Source: Hippopus hippopus (lineage: Eukaryota; Mollusca; Bivalvia; Cardiida; Cardiidae). From it: a stretch of DNA of 64,000 nucleotides. Shown one piece after another: positions 46,443-63,592 of the stretch (positions within the stretch are counted from its first letter, which is position 1; each line of letters opens with the position of its first letter). A program made the position numbers and the translations under genes. A model generated the notes under the pieces. That model made no database searches and was not told the origin of the DNA. It saw nothing but the letters and a program-made list of their open reading frames with translations. The DNA is taken from the NCBI GenBank assembly GCA_946811185.2, contig OX328102.1:15811194-15875193 (forward strand). Direction: 5' to 3'.

Positions 46443-46561
46443 GGATTTTTTGTTTGACTGAAAACAAAGTGTAATTTTGTAATTTACTCTTGAACTATAC
46501 CACAACTTCTTGTTATTTTTGGTGTGCGACTTGATATTTAAATGGTTCAAGATTTGAGCTG

Positions 46562-47644
46562 ATGACTAGAAGCAAAAAAAATCGGAGTGGTCAGCAAAAG
46601 CGTGGTTTACCTTCACCTGATAATGACGATACTCAACCCGAGAAACGTTCAGCGGTGAGCAATATGTCCGCTCAGGAGAATAACGGGCAAGTACAAAACT
46701 ATTTAAATACATCTGGATACACTCAACCTATGAACATGGCGTCTACGAATGCTTATGGCAATTACCAAACACCTCCAGGAGTTTTTCATACACCTATGCA
46801 ACAGCAGTTCTTGCCACAGATGGTTAATCAGTCTTCAACCCAGCAGTCTAGTCCGGGTGTCAGTTTTCAACAAGCAATTCTAGATCGTCTAGATTCTTTG
46901 GATAATCGTCTCGGAAAACTTGATTCTATAGAAAAGCAACTTTCGAACTTGACCAAGAAAGTAACCTCCATGGAAAGTCGTTTATCAGTGTTAGAAACTA
47001 CTTGCACAGAATCAAAACTTAAAATCACGGAATTAGAGAATTCTCGGTCATTTGATAGCCATATTTTAGACGAAGTTAAGAACAAACAGTCACATTTCGA
47101 TGATCAGTTAAAACAGGAAAGAGCGAAAGTAGAATCACTGACGGATGAATGTGAGAAATTGAGATCGGTCCGAGAAGATATTTTGGATTTGCAAGCGAGA
47201 TCGATGAGAGATAATCTGTTGTTCATGGGTTTTCCAGAATGTGAAACTGTTGAATCCAGAAAAAATGAGAACTGCACTAAAATTATTCTTGACTTCTGCC
47301 ACGATGTTTTGAAAATACCAGATGCACACGAATCTATTAAAATTGAAAGGGCACACAGGCTTGGAAAATTTAACAGAAATAAGAGTCGCCCAATAGTTGT
47401 GAAATTCAATCATTTCCCGGATAAAATGTCAGTGAAAAGTCGGGCTTATGAGCACTTGAAGGGATCGAACTACAGAGTGGTTGAACAATTTCCAAAAGGG
47501 ATACAGGACAGGCGAAGAATCTTGGGAGAGTCCATGAAAAAGGCACGTGATGCAGGAAAAACAGCTTCATTGTCATATGACAAGTTATACATAGACGGAA
47601 AAGTTTACACTGTTGATAACATTACGAGCTCAGGTTTTGCTTAG
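46562..47644 (+). CDS. LINE ORF1 protein (nucleic-acid chaperone type)
   Basis: 360 residues. The N-terminus is basic (SKKNRSGQQKRG) and then Gln/Asn/Pro-rich and probably disordered to about residue 100. Residues 103-212 form a heptad-rich coiled coil (LDSLDNRLGKLDSIEKQL). Residues 216-308 look like an RNA-recognition fold: RDNLLFMGFPE at the start resembles the RRM of L1-type ORF1 proteins, and IERAHRLGKFNRNKSRPIVV is a typical later segment. Residues 309-355 form a C-terminal domain (DRRRILGESMKKAR). This architecture is that of trimeric ORF1p, which coats LINE RNA and acts as a chaperone during target-primed reverse transcription. The ATG at 46562 follows an in-frame TGA at 46559. It ends with TAG at 47642, immediately in frame with ORF2. 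Confidence 0.85.
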   Translation: MTRSKKNRSGQQKRGLPSPDNDDTQPEKRSAVSNMSAQENNGQVQNYLNTSGYTQPMNMASTNAYGNYQTPPGVFHTPMQQQFLPQMVNQSSTQQSSPGVSFQQAILDRLDSLDNRLGKLDSIEKQLSNLTKKVTSMESRLSVLETTCTESKLKITELENSRSFDSHILDEVKNKQSHFDDQLKQERAKVESLTDECEKLRSVREDILDLQARSMRDNLLFMGFPECETVESRKNENCTKIILDFCHDVLKIPDAHESIKIERAHRLGKFNRNKSRPIVVKFNHFPDKMSVKSRAYEHLKGSNYRVVEQFPKGIQDRRRILGESMKKARDAGKTASLSYDKLYIDGKVYTVDNITSSGFA

Positions 47645-50600
47645 GGGTGTATAAATGAACACCTTCAGTTTGCTGTATGGAATGTACAGGGTTTAAAATC
47701 AAAATTAGATGATCAAAGTTTCAATTATCTCATTTCGTCTTATGATGTCTTATTGTTTACTGAGACGTGGCATTCAAAAGTCACAAATTTATCTCTTGAA
47801 GGGTTTGAATACATTAGCTGCCCTCGTCCGAAGTTTAATAAGCGAGCAAAGCGGGACAGTGGAGGAATTGTAGTTTACTTTAAAAAAAGTCTCAGTAAAT
47901 ATATCGAACCTGTGGAAGTGAACAGTAACGGTATAATTTGGTTCAAATTGTTGAAAGCTGTTACTTTTTTAGACAAAGATTTATATTTTTGTTTATGTTA
48001 CATTCCGCCTGAGGACTCGCAAGTTTACAAAAACAGTAGATCAGCATTATTTCAGTGTGATTTTTATGACATTTTGGATAACGGTATAAGGAAATACAGT
48101 GACTTCGGGCATATATTCTTAACTGGCGATTTCAATGCGCGCACGGGAGAAGATTTAGATTTTATTCCGAGTGCGGGTTTAGATCGCTTTGTTGATTTGC
48201 CGTTCTCCGTGGATAATCACTTACCTGGTCGCAGGAATTGTGACAAACTTGTAAATACTTTCGGGCGTAAGCTTTTATCTCTTTGTAAAGAAAATAGTTT
48301 ATTTATAGTTAATGGCAGGTTAGAAAAGGGAGAGTATACATTTCATGGTACTCATAGAAATAGATCTATAAATAGTACTGTCGATTATCTTACAACAAGC
48401 GAATCTGATTTTCAATTTGTTGACAATTTTCGAGTAATTCCATTGACAGAATTCTCCGATCATAGTCCTTTAAATTTTGAGTTACGTACTAAAGTTGATT
48501 ATGCTATTAGTACTGATAACCAAACTTGTGTTGACAAAATTGTATGGAATAGTTCCAAAAAGGAAGAACTTCTCCGCTATTTAAATGAAAACTGCTTTCT
48601 GTTTGACAATCTAACGGAGCGCCTTTTAACAAATGAAACTGATTTAAATCAATGTATGACTGAATTTTCACAATTAGTGTATGATACTTCATTCGCTTTT
48701 TGTGGAAAGACGGTACATACTGTTTCACATAAAAAACATTATAAACAACAATCATCATGGTTTAATCATGAATGTAAAAATGCAAAATCTAAATTTTATA
48801 CAGCTAAAAGAAATTGTTTGAAAAATCCTACGGATGAAAACAAACACTTATTTTTAAAAAGTAGATCAGATTTCATAAAAATCAAAAGAGATACAAAGCG
48901 TAAATTTGATTTTAGAGAGAAATGTAGGCTTAGTAATTTGAGCAAAGAATCTCCGCGGCAATTTTGGAAATATATTAATAAGTATAAAAGATCGGGCTCT
49001 GCAATGCCCGAATTATCAGCAGATGACTTTGCAGCATATTTTTCAAATTTGTCTGATGCAGTGCGAACGGATAACGTTTTCAATGAAAACGAGATCCGCT
49101 CGCATTGCATCGATGAGTTGGACAGACATATAACTGTGTATGAAATTGATAAGGTGATTTCTTCTATGAACAGGAACAAGAGTTGTGATCTTGAACATAA
49201 TGTCGCTGATTTCTTTATTGAATGTAAAAGTTTTATATCACCTTATCTTTGCACTATTTTTAATCATATTTTTGATACATGTTCCTACCCTGATGCATGG
49301 ACTAAGGGAGTAATTGTTCCCTTATATAAAAAAGGTGATCCTCAACAACCTGATAACTACAGAGGCATAACTCTTATGAATATAACTGCAAAAATTTTTT
49401 CTTTAATTCTTAGAAATCGCATTAACTCATGGTGCGAAGGACAGCAAATTTTCACTGAAAATCAGTTTGGATTTCGTGATGGCCATTCCACTGTCGATGC
49501 TATTTTTATTTTACATTCTTTAATTCAAAAGGTTTTATCAAAAAACCGTAAGCTTTGGTGTATTTTTATAGATTATAAACGTGCATTCGATACAGTGGAC
49601 AGGGATCTCCTTTGGTATAAACTTTTACAAACTGGTATCAGTAGTAAAATGTTAAATATGATCAGATGTATATATCAAAAAGTCCAATCTTGCGTAAAAC
49701 TATCAGAAAAGTCTGATTTATCTTACTTCTTTGATGTTTCGATAGGCTTGAAACAAGGAGAGCCTCTCTCACCTATTCTCTTCATACTTTTCATTAATGA
49801 TATTGTAGAAAATATAGATTTGGAATCGTTAACAGACACGGATTTAGAGTTTTTAACGAAGTATATGATTCTTTTCGCTGATGATCTTGTTTTATTTACC
49901 ATTAGTCCAGTTAGTTTACAAGCTCAGGTTAACAGTATTTTGCGTTACTCTGAAAAATGGGGATTAACTATTAATGTTGATAAGACTAAAGTATGTGTCT
50001 TTGAGAAAAGAAAGTCAAAACATGATTGTGATATTTTTATTAATGGTAGAACTGTTGAAATAGTTGACAGTTTCACTTATTTAGGCCTCAAATTTTATTA
50101 TACAGGCAGTTTTAAACATGCAGTCCGTGCTCTGAATGAACAAGCACAAAAAGCCTATCATACTTTACTTAAAGTTTTTGATAAAGTTTCATTGGACATA
50201 AAGACAAAAGTTTCGCTTTTTGACTCTTTGGTTTTACCAATCCTATTATATGGAGCAGAGGTTTGGGGAGTATATAGTTTTAAAGACATTGATAAGTTAC
50301 ATGTCAGATTTCTGAAGTACCTTTTAGGTGTAAAACAGCAAACACCAAACTTTGCAGTTTTAGGTGAATTTGGTAGACTTCCTCTTTCCGTTCTATGTAA
50401 GCAACGAACACTTAAATTCTGGTCTAAAATTATGTCAAACGATCAGTCACCTATACATGATATATATCTAGATCAATGTAATAATGTTGCTGGTAATTGT
50501 TGGTCAAAAAGACTCCATTCAATCATTGATCACTTAGGATATACTAATATTAGATTAAATTTTAATCGAGAGCTGAATAATTTTTCTGCCTTGAAATTAC

Positions 50601-51052
50601 GATTAAATGACCAATTTGTTCAAGAGTGGCACCATATCATTAATAATTTACCAAAACTTTCATGTTACCGTTCATTCAAACGGAAATTTTGTTTCGAGGC
50701 TTATCTTGACAAAATCCAAAATCAGAAACTGTTGAAGACTTTTGCTAAATTTAGATTAAGTTCACATGAGTTAGAAATCGAAACAGGACGCTTCAGTAAT
50801 ATTCCACGTGACGAGAGATTTTGTAAAATGTGTAATAGTGGCTACATAGAAACCGAATTTCACTTTCTTTTATGCTGTCCAACATACAATGATATGAGGA
50901 GGGAATATTTTGGTAACAACTGCCGGCCAACTCAATCTAAATTTATAAGTTTAATGTCATGCAATAGTAAAAAGATAATTCTTAATATTTCCAAGTATAT
51001 TTCAACTTGCTTAGATTTTCGCGAAGCGATCTATAATTCTGGTGAATCGTAA
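47645..51052 (+). CDS. LINE ORF2: AP-type endonuclease, reverse transcriptase, C-terminal zinc motif
   Basis: The frame opens directly after the ORF1 TAG. The domain begins at once: WNVQGL (from 47678), LLFTETW (catalytic Glu at 47762), TGDFNAR (Asp at 48128), STVDYL, and SDHSPL (Asp-His at 48458-48463), the full set of exonuclease/endonuclease/phosphatase-fold residues. Reverse transcriptase motifs follow: LYKKGD and NYRGI (about 49.3 kb), QFGFR, FIDYKRAFDTVD, GLKQGEPLSP, the catalytic FADD box (49874-49885) and TYLGL. Near the C-terminus a C-x2-C...H-x3/4-C motif (50822-50880, CKMCNSGY...HFLLCC) matches the CCHC finger usual after LINE RT. The first in-frame ATG is at 48656, beyond the endonuclease, so independent AUG initiation could not make a complete protein. 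All key residues seen are intact. Confidence 0.9.
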   Translation, partial: GCINEHLQFAVWNVQGLKSKLDDQSFNYLISSYDVLLFTETWHSKVTNLSLEGFEYISCPRPKFNKRAKRDSGGIVVYFKKSLSKYIEPVEVNSNGIIWFKLLKAVTFLDKDLYFCLCYIPPEDSQVYKNSRSALFQCDFYDILDNGIRKYSDFGHIFLTGDFNARTGEDLDFIPSAGLDRFVDLPFSVDNHLPGRRNCDKLVNTFGRKLLSLCKENSLFIVNGRLEKGEYTFHGTHRNRSINSTVDYLTTSESDFQFVDNFRVIPLTEFSDHSPLNFELRTKVDYAISTDNQTCVDKIVWNSSKKEELLRYLNENCFLFDNLTERLLTNETDLNQCMTEFSQLVYDTSFAFCGKTVHTVSHKKHYKQQSSWFNHECKNAKSKFYTAKRNCLKNPTDENKHLFLKSRSDFIKIKRDTKRKFDFREKCRLSNLSKESPRQFWKYINKYKRSGSAMPELSADDFAAYFSNLSDAVRTDNVFNENEIRSHCIDELDRHITVYEIDKVISSMNRNKSCDLEHNVADFFIECKSFISPYLCTIFNHIFDTCSYPDAWTKGVIVPLYKKGDPQQPDNYRGITLMNITAKIFSLILRNRINSWCEGQQIFTENQFGFRDGHSTVDAIFILHSLIQKVLSKNRKLWCIFIDYKRAFDTVDRDLLWYKLLQTGISSKMLNMIRCIYQKVQSCVKLSEKSDLSYFFDVSIGLKQGEPLSPILFILFINDIVENIDLESLTDTDLEFLTKYMILFADDLVLFTISPVSLQAQVNSILRYSEKWGLTINVDKTKVCVFEKRKSKHDCDIFINGRTVEIVDSFTYLGLKFYYTGSFKHAVRALNEQAQKAYHTLLKVFDKVSLDIKTKVSLFDSLVLPILLYGAEVWGVYSFKDIDKLHVRFLKYLLGVKQQTPNFAVLGEFGRLPLSVLCKQRTLKFWSKIMSNDQSPIHDIYLDQCNNVAGNCWSKRLHSIIDHLGYTNIRLNFNRELNNFSALKLRLNDQFVQEWHHIINNLPKLSCYRSFKRKFCFEAYLDKIQNQKLLKTFAKFRLSSHELEIETGRFSNIPRDERFCKMCNSGYIETEFHFLLCCPTYNDMRREYFGNNCRPTQSKFISLMSCNSKKIILNISKYISTCLDFREAIYNSGES

Positions 51053-60280: not shown

Positions 60281-60289
60281 AGTAGTAAA

Positions 60290-60344
60290 GGACGAGAGAA
60301 TAGGGTACTACCCAGGGCCCGGGTAGTACCCTATTCTCTCGTCC
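60290..60344. repeat. Perfect terminal hairpin of the Polinton-like element
   Basis: Arms GGACGAGAGAATAGGGTACT(ACCC) and complement, 24 bp each with no mismatch, loop AGGGCCC. It lies 9 bp inside the proposed left terminus. Confidence 0.85.
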
Positions 60345-60424
60345 CTGAGTGCCCTACATCACCATCCCTGACAAAAATGGGGCCCTATTTGCTGTCCCCG
60401 AAAGATTTTTTTTTATTTTGTCCC

Positions 60425-60605
60425 TAGGCTCTCTTCCCTGAGAGGGATTTAGCATTCAAAATGGCGGCCGTTTGGACAGCAACCGCGGACAAAAATTGAC
60501 CAGGCTCTCTACCCTGAGCGGAATTTTTTGCAAAAAAGGGAAAAGGGGGCGAGTTTTGCCTATTCTCTCTACCCTGAGAGGGATTTAGCATTCAAAATGC
60601 CGGCC
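60425..60605. repeat. Direct repeats with small hairpins and YY1-like site
   Basis: CTCT(C/A)..CCCTGAGAGGGA, then TTTAGCATTCAAAATGGCGGCC occurs at 60430-60469 and again, with one change (GCCGGCC), at 60571-60604. A third CTCTACCCTGAG lies at about 60513-60524. CAAAATGGCGGCC (60457-60469) is a good YY1 consensus. Probably part of the terminal repeat. Confidence 0.6.
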
Positions 60606-60952
60606 TTGTATGTATGATTTTCTCTCTTTCTAATTGCCTGACCATTGAGTTGGACTTAGACTTTTTTCTGCATCTCTATGAATGATTTCTCTTTTCTAAA
60701 AGGAAATTTATCCTATATCACTGAGTTGGACTTAGTTTTTTCTTCACCTATGTATGATTTTCTCTCTTTCTAAAAGCCTGACCATTGAGTTGGACTTAGT
60801 TTTTTTTCACCCTATGAATGATTTGTTCTCTTTCTAAATGTCTGAGCACTGAGTTGTACTTAGTTTTTTTTGCCCTATGTATGATTTTCTCTCTTTCTAA
60901 TTGCCTGACCATTGAGTTGGACTTAGTCTTTTTCTGCATCTATGAATGATTC
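60606..60952. repeat. Tandem repeat, about 64-bp unit, five copies
   Basis: Unit words: TATGTATGATTTTCTCTCTT, TCTAATTGCCTGACCATTGA and GTTGGACTTAGTTTTTTT. GAGTTGGACTTAG or its variant falls at about 60647, 60723, 60787, 60851 and 60914, spacings 76, 64, 64 and 63. No ORF runs through it. Confidence 0.8.
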
Positions 60953-61016
60953 TTACTCTTTGCAGTATAACTCTCTGGAGTATAACTCTTTTGGAGTGTA
61001 TCTCTTCTAAAAGAAA

Positions 61017-61500
61017 GATAGAACTTTCGTGGTAGATGGTTAGTCCTGAAAAGGACTGTTGGGTTAGCTCTGAAAAGAGCTGTGACAATTTGAAGAAATG
61101 ACAACTTGAAGATAGAACTTTCGTCTGGCAGCTTGAAGGTAGAACTTTCGTCTGACATCTTGAAGATAGATCTTTCGTGGTAGATGGTTAGTCCTGAAAA
61201 GGACTGTTGGGTTAGCTCTGAAAAGAGCTGTGACAATTTGAAGAAATGACAACTTGAAGATAGAACTTTCGTCTGACAGCTTGAAGGTAGAACTTTCGTC
61301 TGACATCTTGAAGATAGATCTTTCGTGGTAGATGGTTAGTCCTGAAAAGGACTGTTGGGTTAGCTCTGAAAAGAGCTGTGACAATTTGAAAAGAGCTGTG
61401 ACAATTTGAAGAAATGACAACTTGAAGATAGAACTTTCGTATGACAGCTTGAAGGTAGAACTTTCGTCTGGCATCTTGAAGATAGAACTTTCGTGGTAAA
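61017..61500 (-). repeat. 148-bp tandem repeat array, three full units
   Basis: GGTAGATGGTTAGTCC falls at 61031, 61179 and 61327 (period 148) and, as GGTAAATGGTTAGCCC, at 61495 (168 because a 20-bp piece is duplicated). Each unit has a hairpin pair plus GATAGAACTTTCGTCTGACA sub-repeats. Open frames on the minus strand (up to 151 codons) are translated repeats, not convincing genes. Confidence 0.9.
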
Positions 61501-61569
61501 TGGTTAGCCCTGAAAAGGACTGTTGGGTTAGCTCTGAAAAGAACTGTTGGGTTAGCCCTTAAAAGGGCT
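61042..61569 (-). terminator. Array of nine histone-type 3' stem-loops (putative RNA 3' processing signals)
   Basis: Minus-strand hairpins at 61569-61554 (AGCCCTTTTAAGGGCT), 61545-61530, 61521-61506, 61377-61362, 61353-61338, 61229-61214, 61205-61190, 61081-61066 and 61057-61042 (AGCTCTTTTCAGAGCT or AGTCCTTTTCAGGACT). Each has a 6-bp stem and UUUC or UUUA loop, like the histone mRNA stem-loop. The 3' flank is AACCCA or AACCAU. In the 148-bp units, 10 nt after the second stem comes CACGAAAG, close to the purine-rich downstream element bound by U7 snRNA (CAAGAAAGA type). The first hairpin is preceded by CAAAAC, as in many histone genes, and lies about 50 nt after the stop codon at 61621. Similarity is by eye; function is inferred. 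Confidence 0.55.
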
Positions 61570-61620
61570 GTTTTGTTTTGGAGGCTGTGTTTTTTTCGTC
61601 TCACGTTGTTTTTTCCACTT

Positions 61621-61926
61621 CTAATGACAGCATCCGAAATTCGCTTGACAAATGGGGCATGCTTCAACTCTTTTTCTGATTACCATTGCTCCATTATCGA
61701 AAGTAATCTTCCTCCAAAATTCGATATCAACCAAAATGACATCCGGTGTTGCCTTTAAAAATAGTTGAACTAATCTTTCACCGAGATCTTTGTATGGCTG
61801 TGTTATACGTTGTAGTTGGTTTTGTTCCTCCTCTCCTACGAAATGAGTGTTTAGTTGTAATAACTGTTGACCTGCATTCAAATAGTCTTGGAGAGCCTCA
61901 CGTAGTTGATAATTTATCTCCTCCAT
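61621..61926 (-). CDS. Small hypothetical protein of the Polinton-like element
   Basis: 101 residues, not recognised. The N-terminal half is Gln/Glu/Leu-rich and helical (INYQLREALQDYLNAGQQLL). A middle segment LGERLVQLFLKATPDVILVD follows, and the C-terminus has a CPIC...CCH cluster that might bind a metal. A TATA promoter lies about 110 nt upstream and the stem-loop array just downstream, so it looks like a complete transcription unit. The start ATG abuts three 19-bp repeats in the leader. It could be a conserved accessory protein of this element family. Confidence 0.5.
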   Translation of the reverse strand: MEEINYQLREALQDYLNAGQQLLQLNTHFVGEEEQNQLQRITQPYKDLGERLVQLFLKATPDVILVDIEFWRKITFDNGAMVIRKRVEACPICQANFGCCH

Positions 61927-61983
61927 ATTGATACTGCTTCCGAATATTGATACTGCTTCCGAATATTGATACCGCTTTCGAAG
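61927..61983. repeat. Three 19-bp tandem repeats in a 5' leader
   Basis: ATTGATACTGCTTCCGAAT twice exactly and once with changes (ATTGATACCGCTTTCGAAG), directly upstream of the minus-strand start codon at 61926. Confidence 0.9.
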
Positions 61984-62027
61984 TGTTCGTTAGCTGAGAG
62001 TCAAAAATGATGAATGTATGGAAATAA

Positions 62028-62060
62028 CCCTGGGTTTTTATACGTTTAAGGAGGATTGAA
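62028..62060 (-). promoter_or_regulatory. TATA promoter cassette, minus strand
   Basis: The minus strand reads TTCAATCCTCCT then TATAAAAACCCAG (TATA at about 62042-62036). It is matched almost base for base by the plus-strand cassette at 62193-62225. Predicted start is near 62010, before the 101-codon gene. Confidence 0.6.
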
Positions 62061-62172
62061 ATTTTTAAAGAGCGCGGACCTGACGGGAAACACCAGGATT
62101 GTACTGTGTGACACTGAGTTAGGAGTGGTAAAAACAGCATGAAACGGCGATGCGGGAAAAACATAGGAAAAA

Positions 62173-62187
62173 TGACGTCATGAGTCA
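62173..62187. promoter_or_regulatory. Adjacent CRE (TGACGTCA) and AP-1 (TGAGTCA) sites
   Basis: Full-consensus CREB/ATF site at 62173-62180 immediately followed by a full-consensus AP-1 site at 62181-62187, 25 bp before the plus-strand TATA box. Suggests signal-responsive transcription. Confidence 0.6.
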
Positions 62188-62192
62188 ATCAG

Positions 62193-62225
62193 TTCAATCC
62201 TCCTGTAAAGCTATAAAACCCAGCG
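62193..62225 (+). promoter_or_regulatory. TATA promoter cassette, plus strand
   Basis: TTCAATCCTCCTGTAAAGC then TATAAAACCCAGCG (TATAAAA at 62212-62218). An ATG follows 40 nt later at 62258. Confidence 0.6.
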
Positions 62226-62257
62226 ATATTTTTACATAAAATCATATTTGTTCCAGT

Positions 62258-62947: not shown

Positions 62948-62986
62948 ATTTAACCCCTTGTCACACTAAACGGCGTTTCCACTGAG

Positions 62987-63592
62987 TTGGCACGGTGTTG
63001 TTTAAGTTCCCAGACTGCCAAGAGATCGCAGGAAAAATGCGAAGCTCCCGTGGCCTATTATCGCGTTCCTGATGTTGATGAAAAAAGCAAGAAGGAAATC
63101 AAGTACATTGATATCTGTTCTCTGGACCCTTATGTTTGTAAACACAAATCCTATCCTGTAGGTCAGCCAGAAATTTTGTCTGCTGAGAATATTGACATGA
63201 ACAATATTCGACAATATGAGGGCTTAATCAAATGCAAAGTTTTGCCTCCAACTGATTTGTTTCACCCCGTTCTCCCAGTTCACTGTAACAACAAAATGAT
63301 GTTTCCACTCTGTATGAAATGTGCAGAAGAAAGTTCAAGTATTTGTAGCCATGGTGAAGAAAAGAGGGCTTTGGTCGGAACTTGGGTCACTTTTGAATTA
63401 TTCAAGGCTCTTGACTGCGGTTATCGATTATTGCAAGTGTATGAAATTTGGCATTTCAATTCTATGTCAGATCAGTTCTTTAAACGTTATGTGACCAATT
63501 TCTTGAAAATTAAGCAAGAAGGCAGTGGTTATCCAGATCGGTGTCAATCAGACTCAGAAAGAGCAATTGCACAAAGACATTACGGAATATGA
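62987..63592 (+). pseudogene. Protein-primed type B DNA polymerase fragment
   Basis: 201 codons open from a TTG (no suitable ATG; the frame is closed by TAA at 62951). Residues about 20-180 match the middle of Polinton/viral family B polymerases: YIDICSLDPYV is motif A (D-x2-SLYP) with the key Tyr replaced by Asp, followed by SYPVGQP, CKVLPP, FHPVLPV, a Cys/His cluster (CMKCAEESSSICSH), ALVGTWVT, and FLKIKQEGSGYP. The exonuclease domain and motifs B and C are missing. Resemblance to the family continues in the +1 frame from about 63,545 to 63,617, so there is one frameshift before the truncation. A polyadenylation signal follows. Non-functional as a polymerase. Confidence 0.75.

Follow-up and report, generated by a model that had tools for sequence, protein, structure and literature searches.

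The minus-strand array of nine hairpins at positions 61042-61569 of the window (the whole 64,000-nucleotide stretch of DNA that was analysed) very probably consists of 3'-end signals resembling those of the host's own histone genes, carried in the terminal repeat of a Polinton. The array would likely give the mRNA of a small, outward-reading gene a histone-like, non-polyadenylated end and S-phase expression. A histone-type function had been proposed in an earlier note on this DNA and gains support, at the level of sequence, from the host-like spacing of downstream motifs, from models trained on host histone genes, from the same signal behind other genes and from promoter words shared with the host.

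The hairpin array and host histone 3' ends

A motif scan of the 64-kb window recovered all nine of the 16-nt, minus-strand hairpins with 6-bp stems described in the earlier note. Every one forms six pairs when G-U is counted, and seven of the nine are fully Watson-Crick, the other two containing one G-U each. The six perfect copies of two sequences mentioned there were counted as three of AGCTCTTTTCAGAGCT and three of AGTCCTTTTCAGGACT. Also as described, AACCCA or AACCAT lies directly 3' of each hairpin (9/9), CACGAAAG begins 10 nt past the last stem of every hairpin group (4/4), and the first stem pair is A-U in place of G-C (9/9); the distance from the preceding stop codon to hairpin 1, given as about 50 nt, was measured as 51 nt (ORF 61926..61621). 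A guanine at the second pair and flanking adenine are likewise present in all nine. The other 34 loose matches to the hairpin motif in the 64 kb had five pairs or fewer, or T runs. The nine hairpins are:

61554..61569, minus strand: hairpin 1, AGCCCTTTTAAGGGCT, identical to the host H4/H3/H2A stem-loop except at the first pair
61530..61545, minus strand: hairpin 2, with one G-U pair
61506..61521, minus strand: hairpin 3, with one G-U pair
61362..61377, minus strand: hairpin 4, from the motif scan
61338..61353, minus strand: hairpin 5, identical to the host H1 stem-loop except at the first pair
61214..61229, minus strand: hairpin 6, from the motif scan
61190..61205, minus strand: hairpin 7, from the motif scan
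61066..61081, minus strand: hairpin 8, from the motif scan
61042..61057, minus strand: hairpin 9, from the motif scan

A 148-bp unit, itself made of sub-repeats of 24 and 27 bp, recurs in tandem through the array, and because the hairpins lie in tandem repeats they do not represent nine independent events. Covariation among them is modest, an equally high value being reached in 34 of 500 shuffles. A protein-coding role for the array was considered and is unlikely, since 148 is not a multiple of three and the frames shift with each unit. On the minus strand at 61379-61406, AAATTGTCACAGCTCTTTTCAAATTGTC is similar to the 5' portion of U7 snRNA (RF00066, 13.9 bits, E 3.3); this is probably chance or shared logic.

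The host's histone genes were used as a yardstick. The genome searched (1.07 Gb, 34 contigs) contains the window, and at least 58 matches to the Rfam histone stem-loop model RF00032 exceeded its cut-off, all of them on contig C15, with 75 of 305864 candidates scored. Open reading frames for H4, H3, H2A, H2A.X, H2B and H1 lie just upstream of the host hairpins, which read GGCCCTTTTAAGGGCC in H4, H3 and H2A, GGCCCTTTTCAGGGCC in H2A.X, GGCCCTTATCAGGGCC in H2B and GGTCCTTTTCAGGACC in H1. In these genes the stem begins 28-39 nt past the stop codon. A purine core follows the stem at +11 in H4, H2B, H3, H2A.X and H1 (as GAGAG in the last); in H2A, CGAAT was read by eye at +11, a form outside the scripted search. 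TGTCA, mostly as ATTGTCA, lies 30-34 nt past the stem in all six gene types, this box and the distance ranges having been picked after inspection of the host genes, and is a possible extra 3'-end element of host histone genes. In a second H4 copy of the host, the purine stretch is doubled (+11 and +33) and TGTCA comes only at +54. The element array follows a similar plan: each of its four hairpin groups has CGAAA at +12, and at +32 two have TGTCA, one TGCCA and the last neither. Outside the element, CGAAA at 9-13 nt combined with TGTCA at 30-36 nt occurred at 10 of 120300 positions in the window. The sequence GAAAGTTCT is common to the purine stretch of host H2B and the 27-bp repeat of the element.

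The earlier note had looked for an RF00032 score above threshold, and here its expectation failed: five of nine hairpins matched at 18.9-22.9 bits (E 0.0008-0.027 in an 801-base search), short of the 34-bit gathering score. The A-U stem base and the local spacing may explain this. Two covariance models were made from the host: R1 from six host histone 3' ends, the second H4 copy being left out, and R2 from five host histone genes without H4, one gene being held out. On the 64-kb window R1 gave four matches, with rough E-values of 8.5e-7 to 5.3e-5, the next best being at E 0.49. These four modules are:

61470..61527, minus strand: module 1, hairpin 3 with CGAAA at +12 and TGCCA at +32 (R1 31.0 bits, E 4.9e-5)
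61302..61359, minus strand: module 2, hairpin 5 with CGAAA at +12 and TGTCA at +32 (R1 37.8 bits, E 8.5e-7)
61154..61211, minus strand: module 3, hairpin 7 with CGAAA at +12 and TGTCA at +32 (R1 37.8 bits, E 8.5e-7)
61005..61063, minus strand: module 4, hairpin 9 with CGAAA at +12, without TGTCA (R1 30.9 bits, E 5.3e-5)

With R2, whose E-values are equally rough, the held-out H4 gene scored 41.5 bits and the window modules 41.4, 41.4, 37.5 and 35.7 bits; hairpin 1 alone scored 20.6 bits. The window modules match host histone 3' ends as well as the held-out H4 does.

The Polinton element, its terminal gene and its promoters

Besides the array, the element's left terminal inverted repeat contains a terminal palindrome, 64-bp repeats, a 101-codon gene and its promoter. 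The boundaries of this repeat come from alignment to a copy on contig C4. The window's own place has no partner among the matches listed. Alignment with the right repeat of the C4 copy covers 60281-61379 at 87% and 61163-62077 at 96% identity. The C4 copy has terminal inverted repeats of 1633 bp that are 99.755% identical to each other; promoter, gene, array and terminal palindrome all lie within them. Near the left end of the window copy, 60290-60344 is a 27-bp inverted repeat, 96% complementary, with one base between its arms. The features of the element in the window, apart from the array, are:

60281..62077, no strand: left terminal inverted repeat, by alignment to the right repeat of the C4 copy
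61621..61926, minus strand: 101-codon ORF with a C-terminal CPxC..GCC motif, the gene preceding the array
62022..62231, no strand: divergent promoter region with inverted TTCAATCCTCC..TATAAAA arms, found as an inverted repeat
62035..62042, minus strand: TATA box of the 101-codon gene, read from the sequence
62051..62065, minus strand: AAAATTTCAATCCTC, a 15-mer common to the host H2A.X promoter, from the promoter comparison
62068..62082, minus strand: CAGGTCCGCGCTCTT, a 15-mer common to the host H1 promoter, from the promoter comparison
62152..62163, plus strand: GCGGGAAAAACA; CGGGAAAAACA is common to this region and the host H1 promoter
62954..63592, plus strand: DNA polymerase B fragment (PF03175, E 2.2e-18, profile positions 222-362 of 468)

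The Polinton-like assignment made in the earlier note was upheld. An integrase (PF00665, 1.1e-13) with a chromodomain (2e-7) and an A32-like ATPase (PF04665, 4.4e-6) were found in the interior adjoining the window (L132), which belongs to the window's own copy, and an adenovirus-type protease (PF00770, 1.3e-5) in the C4 copy (L103). With the polymerase B fragment and the inverted repeats, the element carries a predicted Polinton gene set, pieced together from separate, unjoined stretches. A capsid-like protein of the C4 copy (L131/L103) has 958 homologues and was without a match in a Pfam search; among the 120 of these homologues that were listed, the named animal ones are F54H12.2-like and come from clam, oysters and ribbon worm. 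These names, and the homologues of host H1, point to a lophotrochozoan host. In the interior adjoining the window, an ORF rich in SPKK motifs (L132, 822-1709) resembles H1 tails or a DNA-condensing virion protein and had no Pfam match. Elsewhere in the window, 46535-51052 is a LINE with endonuclease and reverse transcriptase ORFs.

The 101-residue protein had no homologue at E 0.01 in the protein database searched. Single-sequence structure prediction gave a mean pLDDT of 62.9, with two helices and a low-confidence tail. Of 2365 candidate copies of its gene, 150 were scored; identity among these was 95-100% and 149 were without a stop. Array and gene occur in outward-reading inverted pairs, the genes of a pair often being about 10.9 kb apart; many array/gene places are without a partner among the matches listed. 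Two short versions (C10:36209289-36214385 and C15:5846444-5851540), in which the two terminal genes are only about 4.8 kb apart, are likely non-autonomous.

The expectation that the array would stand behind the same gene elsewhere in the genome was borne out, hairpins being present 3' of the gene in 30 of 30 further loci read. Their number in the copies read ranges from two to thirteen. Of 293 hairpin instances in 36 loci, all six pairs are preserved in 284 and the stem base is A-T in 289; these instances lie within three mismatches of known forms, which favours paired ones, and many copies are close relatives.

Six element promoter stretches, from three families designated A, B and C in the present analysis, were compared with six host histone promoters; two of the six stretches are opposite strands of one region and some are homologous. 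Words of 15-16 nt were common to element and host, shared with H1, H2A and H2A.X. Of 300 shuffled sets, two yielded a sense-strand word of 15 nt and none a word of 16; in 300 sets of window pieces no such word exceeded 14 nt. The promoters of families A and B share CGGGAAAAACA with host H1, and that of family C shares AAAGTAGGTCAATCC(C) with host H2A. All six element stretches, and host H2A too, have TCAATCC ahead of a TATA box. GCGGGAAAAACA is E2F-site-like, and GCGGGAAA and TGACGTCA could be given the names E2F and CRE. In a family B copy (L143), the inward promoter arm precedes a gene with a histone-type end of its own.

The signal across the genome and in related families

The tripartite pattern was defined as a hairpin, 10-13 nt, CGAAA, 14-18 nt and TGTCA, with purines/pyrimidines allowed at the stem base. 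It gave 3075 matches in the genome and none in the reversed control. Among the matches listed (about 100, all on C1), the stem base was A-T, and individual matches were traced to elements only in part. When G-C was required at the first two pairs, 60 matches remained, 59 of them on C15, and the control again gave 0; because this search requires CGAAA, other histone types are missed. Fifty-seven of the G-C-form matches lie at C15 40.59-41.47 Mb among H4 hairpins, and one at the H2A.X gene, also on C15. Two further G-C-form matches are outliers, at C15:40437312-40437363 (40.44 Mb) and C18:10429645-10429698. The host-trained models, together with the genome pattern searches and their reversed controls, place the hairpins beyond chance.

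A sense-strand signal was found in five gene contexts in the three families, with the first stem 20-59 nt past the stop codon: 51 nt for the terminal gene of family A (window), 44 nt for the terminal gene of family B (L066), 33 nt for the interior gene of family B (L143), 59 nt for the interior gene of family C (L141) and 20 nt for the terminal gene of family C (L142), where the frame is interrupted upstream in that copy. The arrays of families A and B are 89-95% alike. Among the genome-pattern matches listed, each place with an interior or family C signal has just one; this count rests on that listing, as the pieces read at L141-L143 stop no more than about 70 nt past the hairpin. With R1, the modules at L141, L142 and L143 scored 48.4-53.6 bits; in L066 and L136 the first module reached 44.1 bits, and further modules there and in L137 and L103 ranged from 25.0 to 38.4 bits. 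A hairpin also lies 29 nt behind the capsid-like gene, with a poor downstream part (18.5 bits, E 0.046). A separate host place (L135, 667-711; C8:42665067) has a hairpin scoring 31.4 bits with RF00032 and 29.2 bits with R1; the 901 bases read there contain no ORF of at least 50 codons on the strand of the hairpin.

Outside this genome, the pieces examined of three relatives belonging to other animals, found in microbial assemblies, contained no histone-like hairpin; terminal repeats were not recognised there. The Polinton-type capsid genes in these bacterial assemblies (L138 and L140, Escarpia laminata endosymbiont MAG; L139, Breoghania MAG) are presumably animal contamination. In viral contigs, the exact hairpin pattern was met at 50 loci, and a stricter scan left four scattered hairpin-like sites and no array. 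One viral-contig locus (L006) was rejected as a pentapeptide-repeat gene in which LFRAN codons resemble the hairpin motif. No relative turned up in viral contigs when the polymerase fragment, the 101-residue protein or a capsid alignment served as query.

Proposed mechanism, alternatives and known systems

According to PMC10388802, no metazoan mRNAs other than those of replication-dependent histones are known to lack poly(A), and SLBP needs the second-pair guanine, its sole base-specific contact, and flanking adenines. PMC7026596 describes U7 snRNA as pairing with the purine element and CPSF73 as cleaving between that element and the hairpin. On this model, the histone-like promoter would drive transcription of the 101-codon gene in S phase, host SLBP would bind an array hairpin, and U7 snRNP would pair with CGAAAG. 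CPSF73 would then cut between hairpin and purine core, so that the first product would keep three hairpins, with its end behind hairpin 3, and the later modules may serve as spare processing sites. Through S-phase expression the element could gain access to nucleotides and replication factors. The host SLBP gene was located on C11. A search for host U7 snRNA with RF00066 gave no match in the host, and none in 14 controls either; a U7-like pattern was noisy in the host genome (280 matches vs 105 in the control). In the window copy a single AATAAA lies 1206 nt past the stop codon, beyond the array, so a polyadenylated end is possible there; 1.87 AATAAA or ATTAAA are expected by shuffling. No AATAAA follows the gene in the stretch of the C4 copy that was read.

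Signals in excess of one gene's need (nine hairpins here, 2-13 in copies, 3075 modules genome-wide) could also mean that the amplified hairpins and purine cores mainly soak up SLBP and U7 snRNP, lowering host histone supply, with 3'-end formation secondary. Such a decoy is unlikely, however: among the matches listed there is a single signal per place, as in histone genes, at family B interior genes and at both interior and terminal genes of family C, promoters and stop-codon distances resemble ordinary gene ends, and tandem repeats may grow without selection. Alternatively, a piece of a host histone gene may have been captured once and carried without function, which would agree with stems nearly identical to the H4 and H1 stem-loops of the host and with the occurrence of GAAAGTTCT in its H2B purine stretch. 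We regard a passenger of this kind as very unlikely, given that the three parts are kept across related families while spacers differ and that 284/293 hairpins are fully paired; the A-T base in 289/293, against G-C in the host, argues that these are not recent histone copies.

The placement of the array within terminal inverted repeats, next to further tandem repeats, and the ability of the palindromic 16-mers to form hairpins as DNA (the opposite strand giving mostly GAAA loops) raise the question of whether replication or packaging at Polinton ends makes use of the hairpins and 27-bp repeats, their likeness to histone signals being accidental. That a DNA-level role of this sort explains the array is extremely doubtful, because the tripartite signal is also present behind interior genes, on the sense strand in both that were read, the purine core and TGTCA box keep the host spacing, the host-trained scores equal that of a held-out histone gene, and reversed-pattern controls gave zero.

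As to the origin of the signal, the words common to element and host in both promoter and terminator favour capture from a histone gene over a resemblance that arose separately. We also lean, with less assurance, toward a broader proposal: Polintons here may imitate histone genes in both the promoter and the 3' end of several transcription units, routing part of their expression via SLBP, U7 snRNP and S phase instead of polyadenylation, and spreading thousands of copies of the signal. If this is true, a Polinton is a second user of the histone mRNA pathway, and a DNA element has a new route for coupling its expression to host DNA replication, with a bearing on how Polintons time their life cycle. 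The thousands of natural signals, with their A-U stem base and TGTCA box, offer material for studying SLBP and U7 recognition. In the searchable full text, titles and abstract openings covered (subscription papers lying outside), no report was found that joins a histone stem-loop with a Polinton or transposable element.

Compared with the known histone 3' end (RF00032, SLBP/U7), the array has the same 6-bp stem, UUUC/UUUA loop, second-pair guanine and 3'-flanking adenine, with a purine core 12 nt past the stem, TGTCA at +32 in two of four modules and, over the five gene contexts, a first stem 20-59 nt past the stop codon. It differs in its first pair, A-U rather than G-C (9/9), in having repeated groups of two or three hairpins for each purine core, in following the non-histone ORFs of a mobile element, and in scoring below the Rfam cut-off. 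Polinton/Maverick elements and their adintovirus-like relatives share with the present one an integrase with chromodomain, A32-like ATPase, protease, capsid-like protein, polymerase B fragment and long terminal inverted repeats, whereas what sets this element apart from them is that its terminal repeats hold a gene whose promoter words and 3' end are of histone type. The host's own histone genes (H1, H2A, H2B, H3, H4 and H2A.X) resemble it in stem-loops, downstream spacing and promoter words, but differ in the first stem pair, in coding content and in lying in the C15 cluster, the copies of the element being dispersed.
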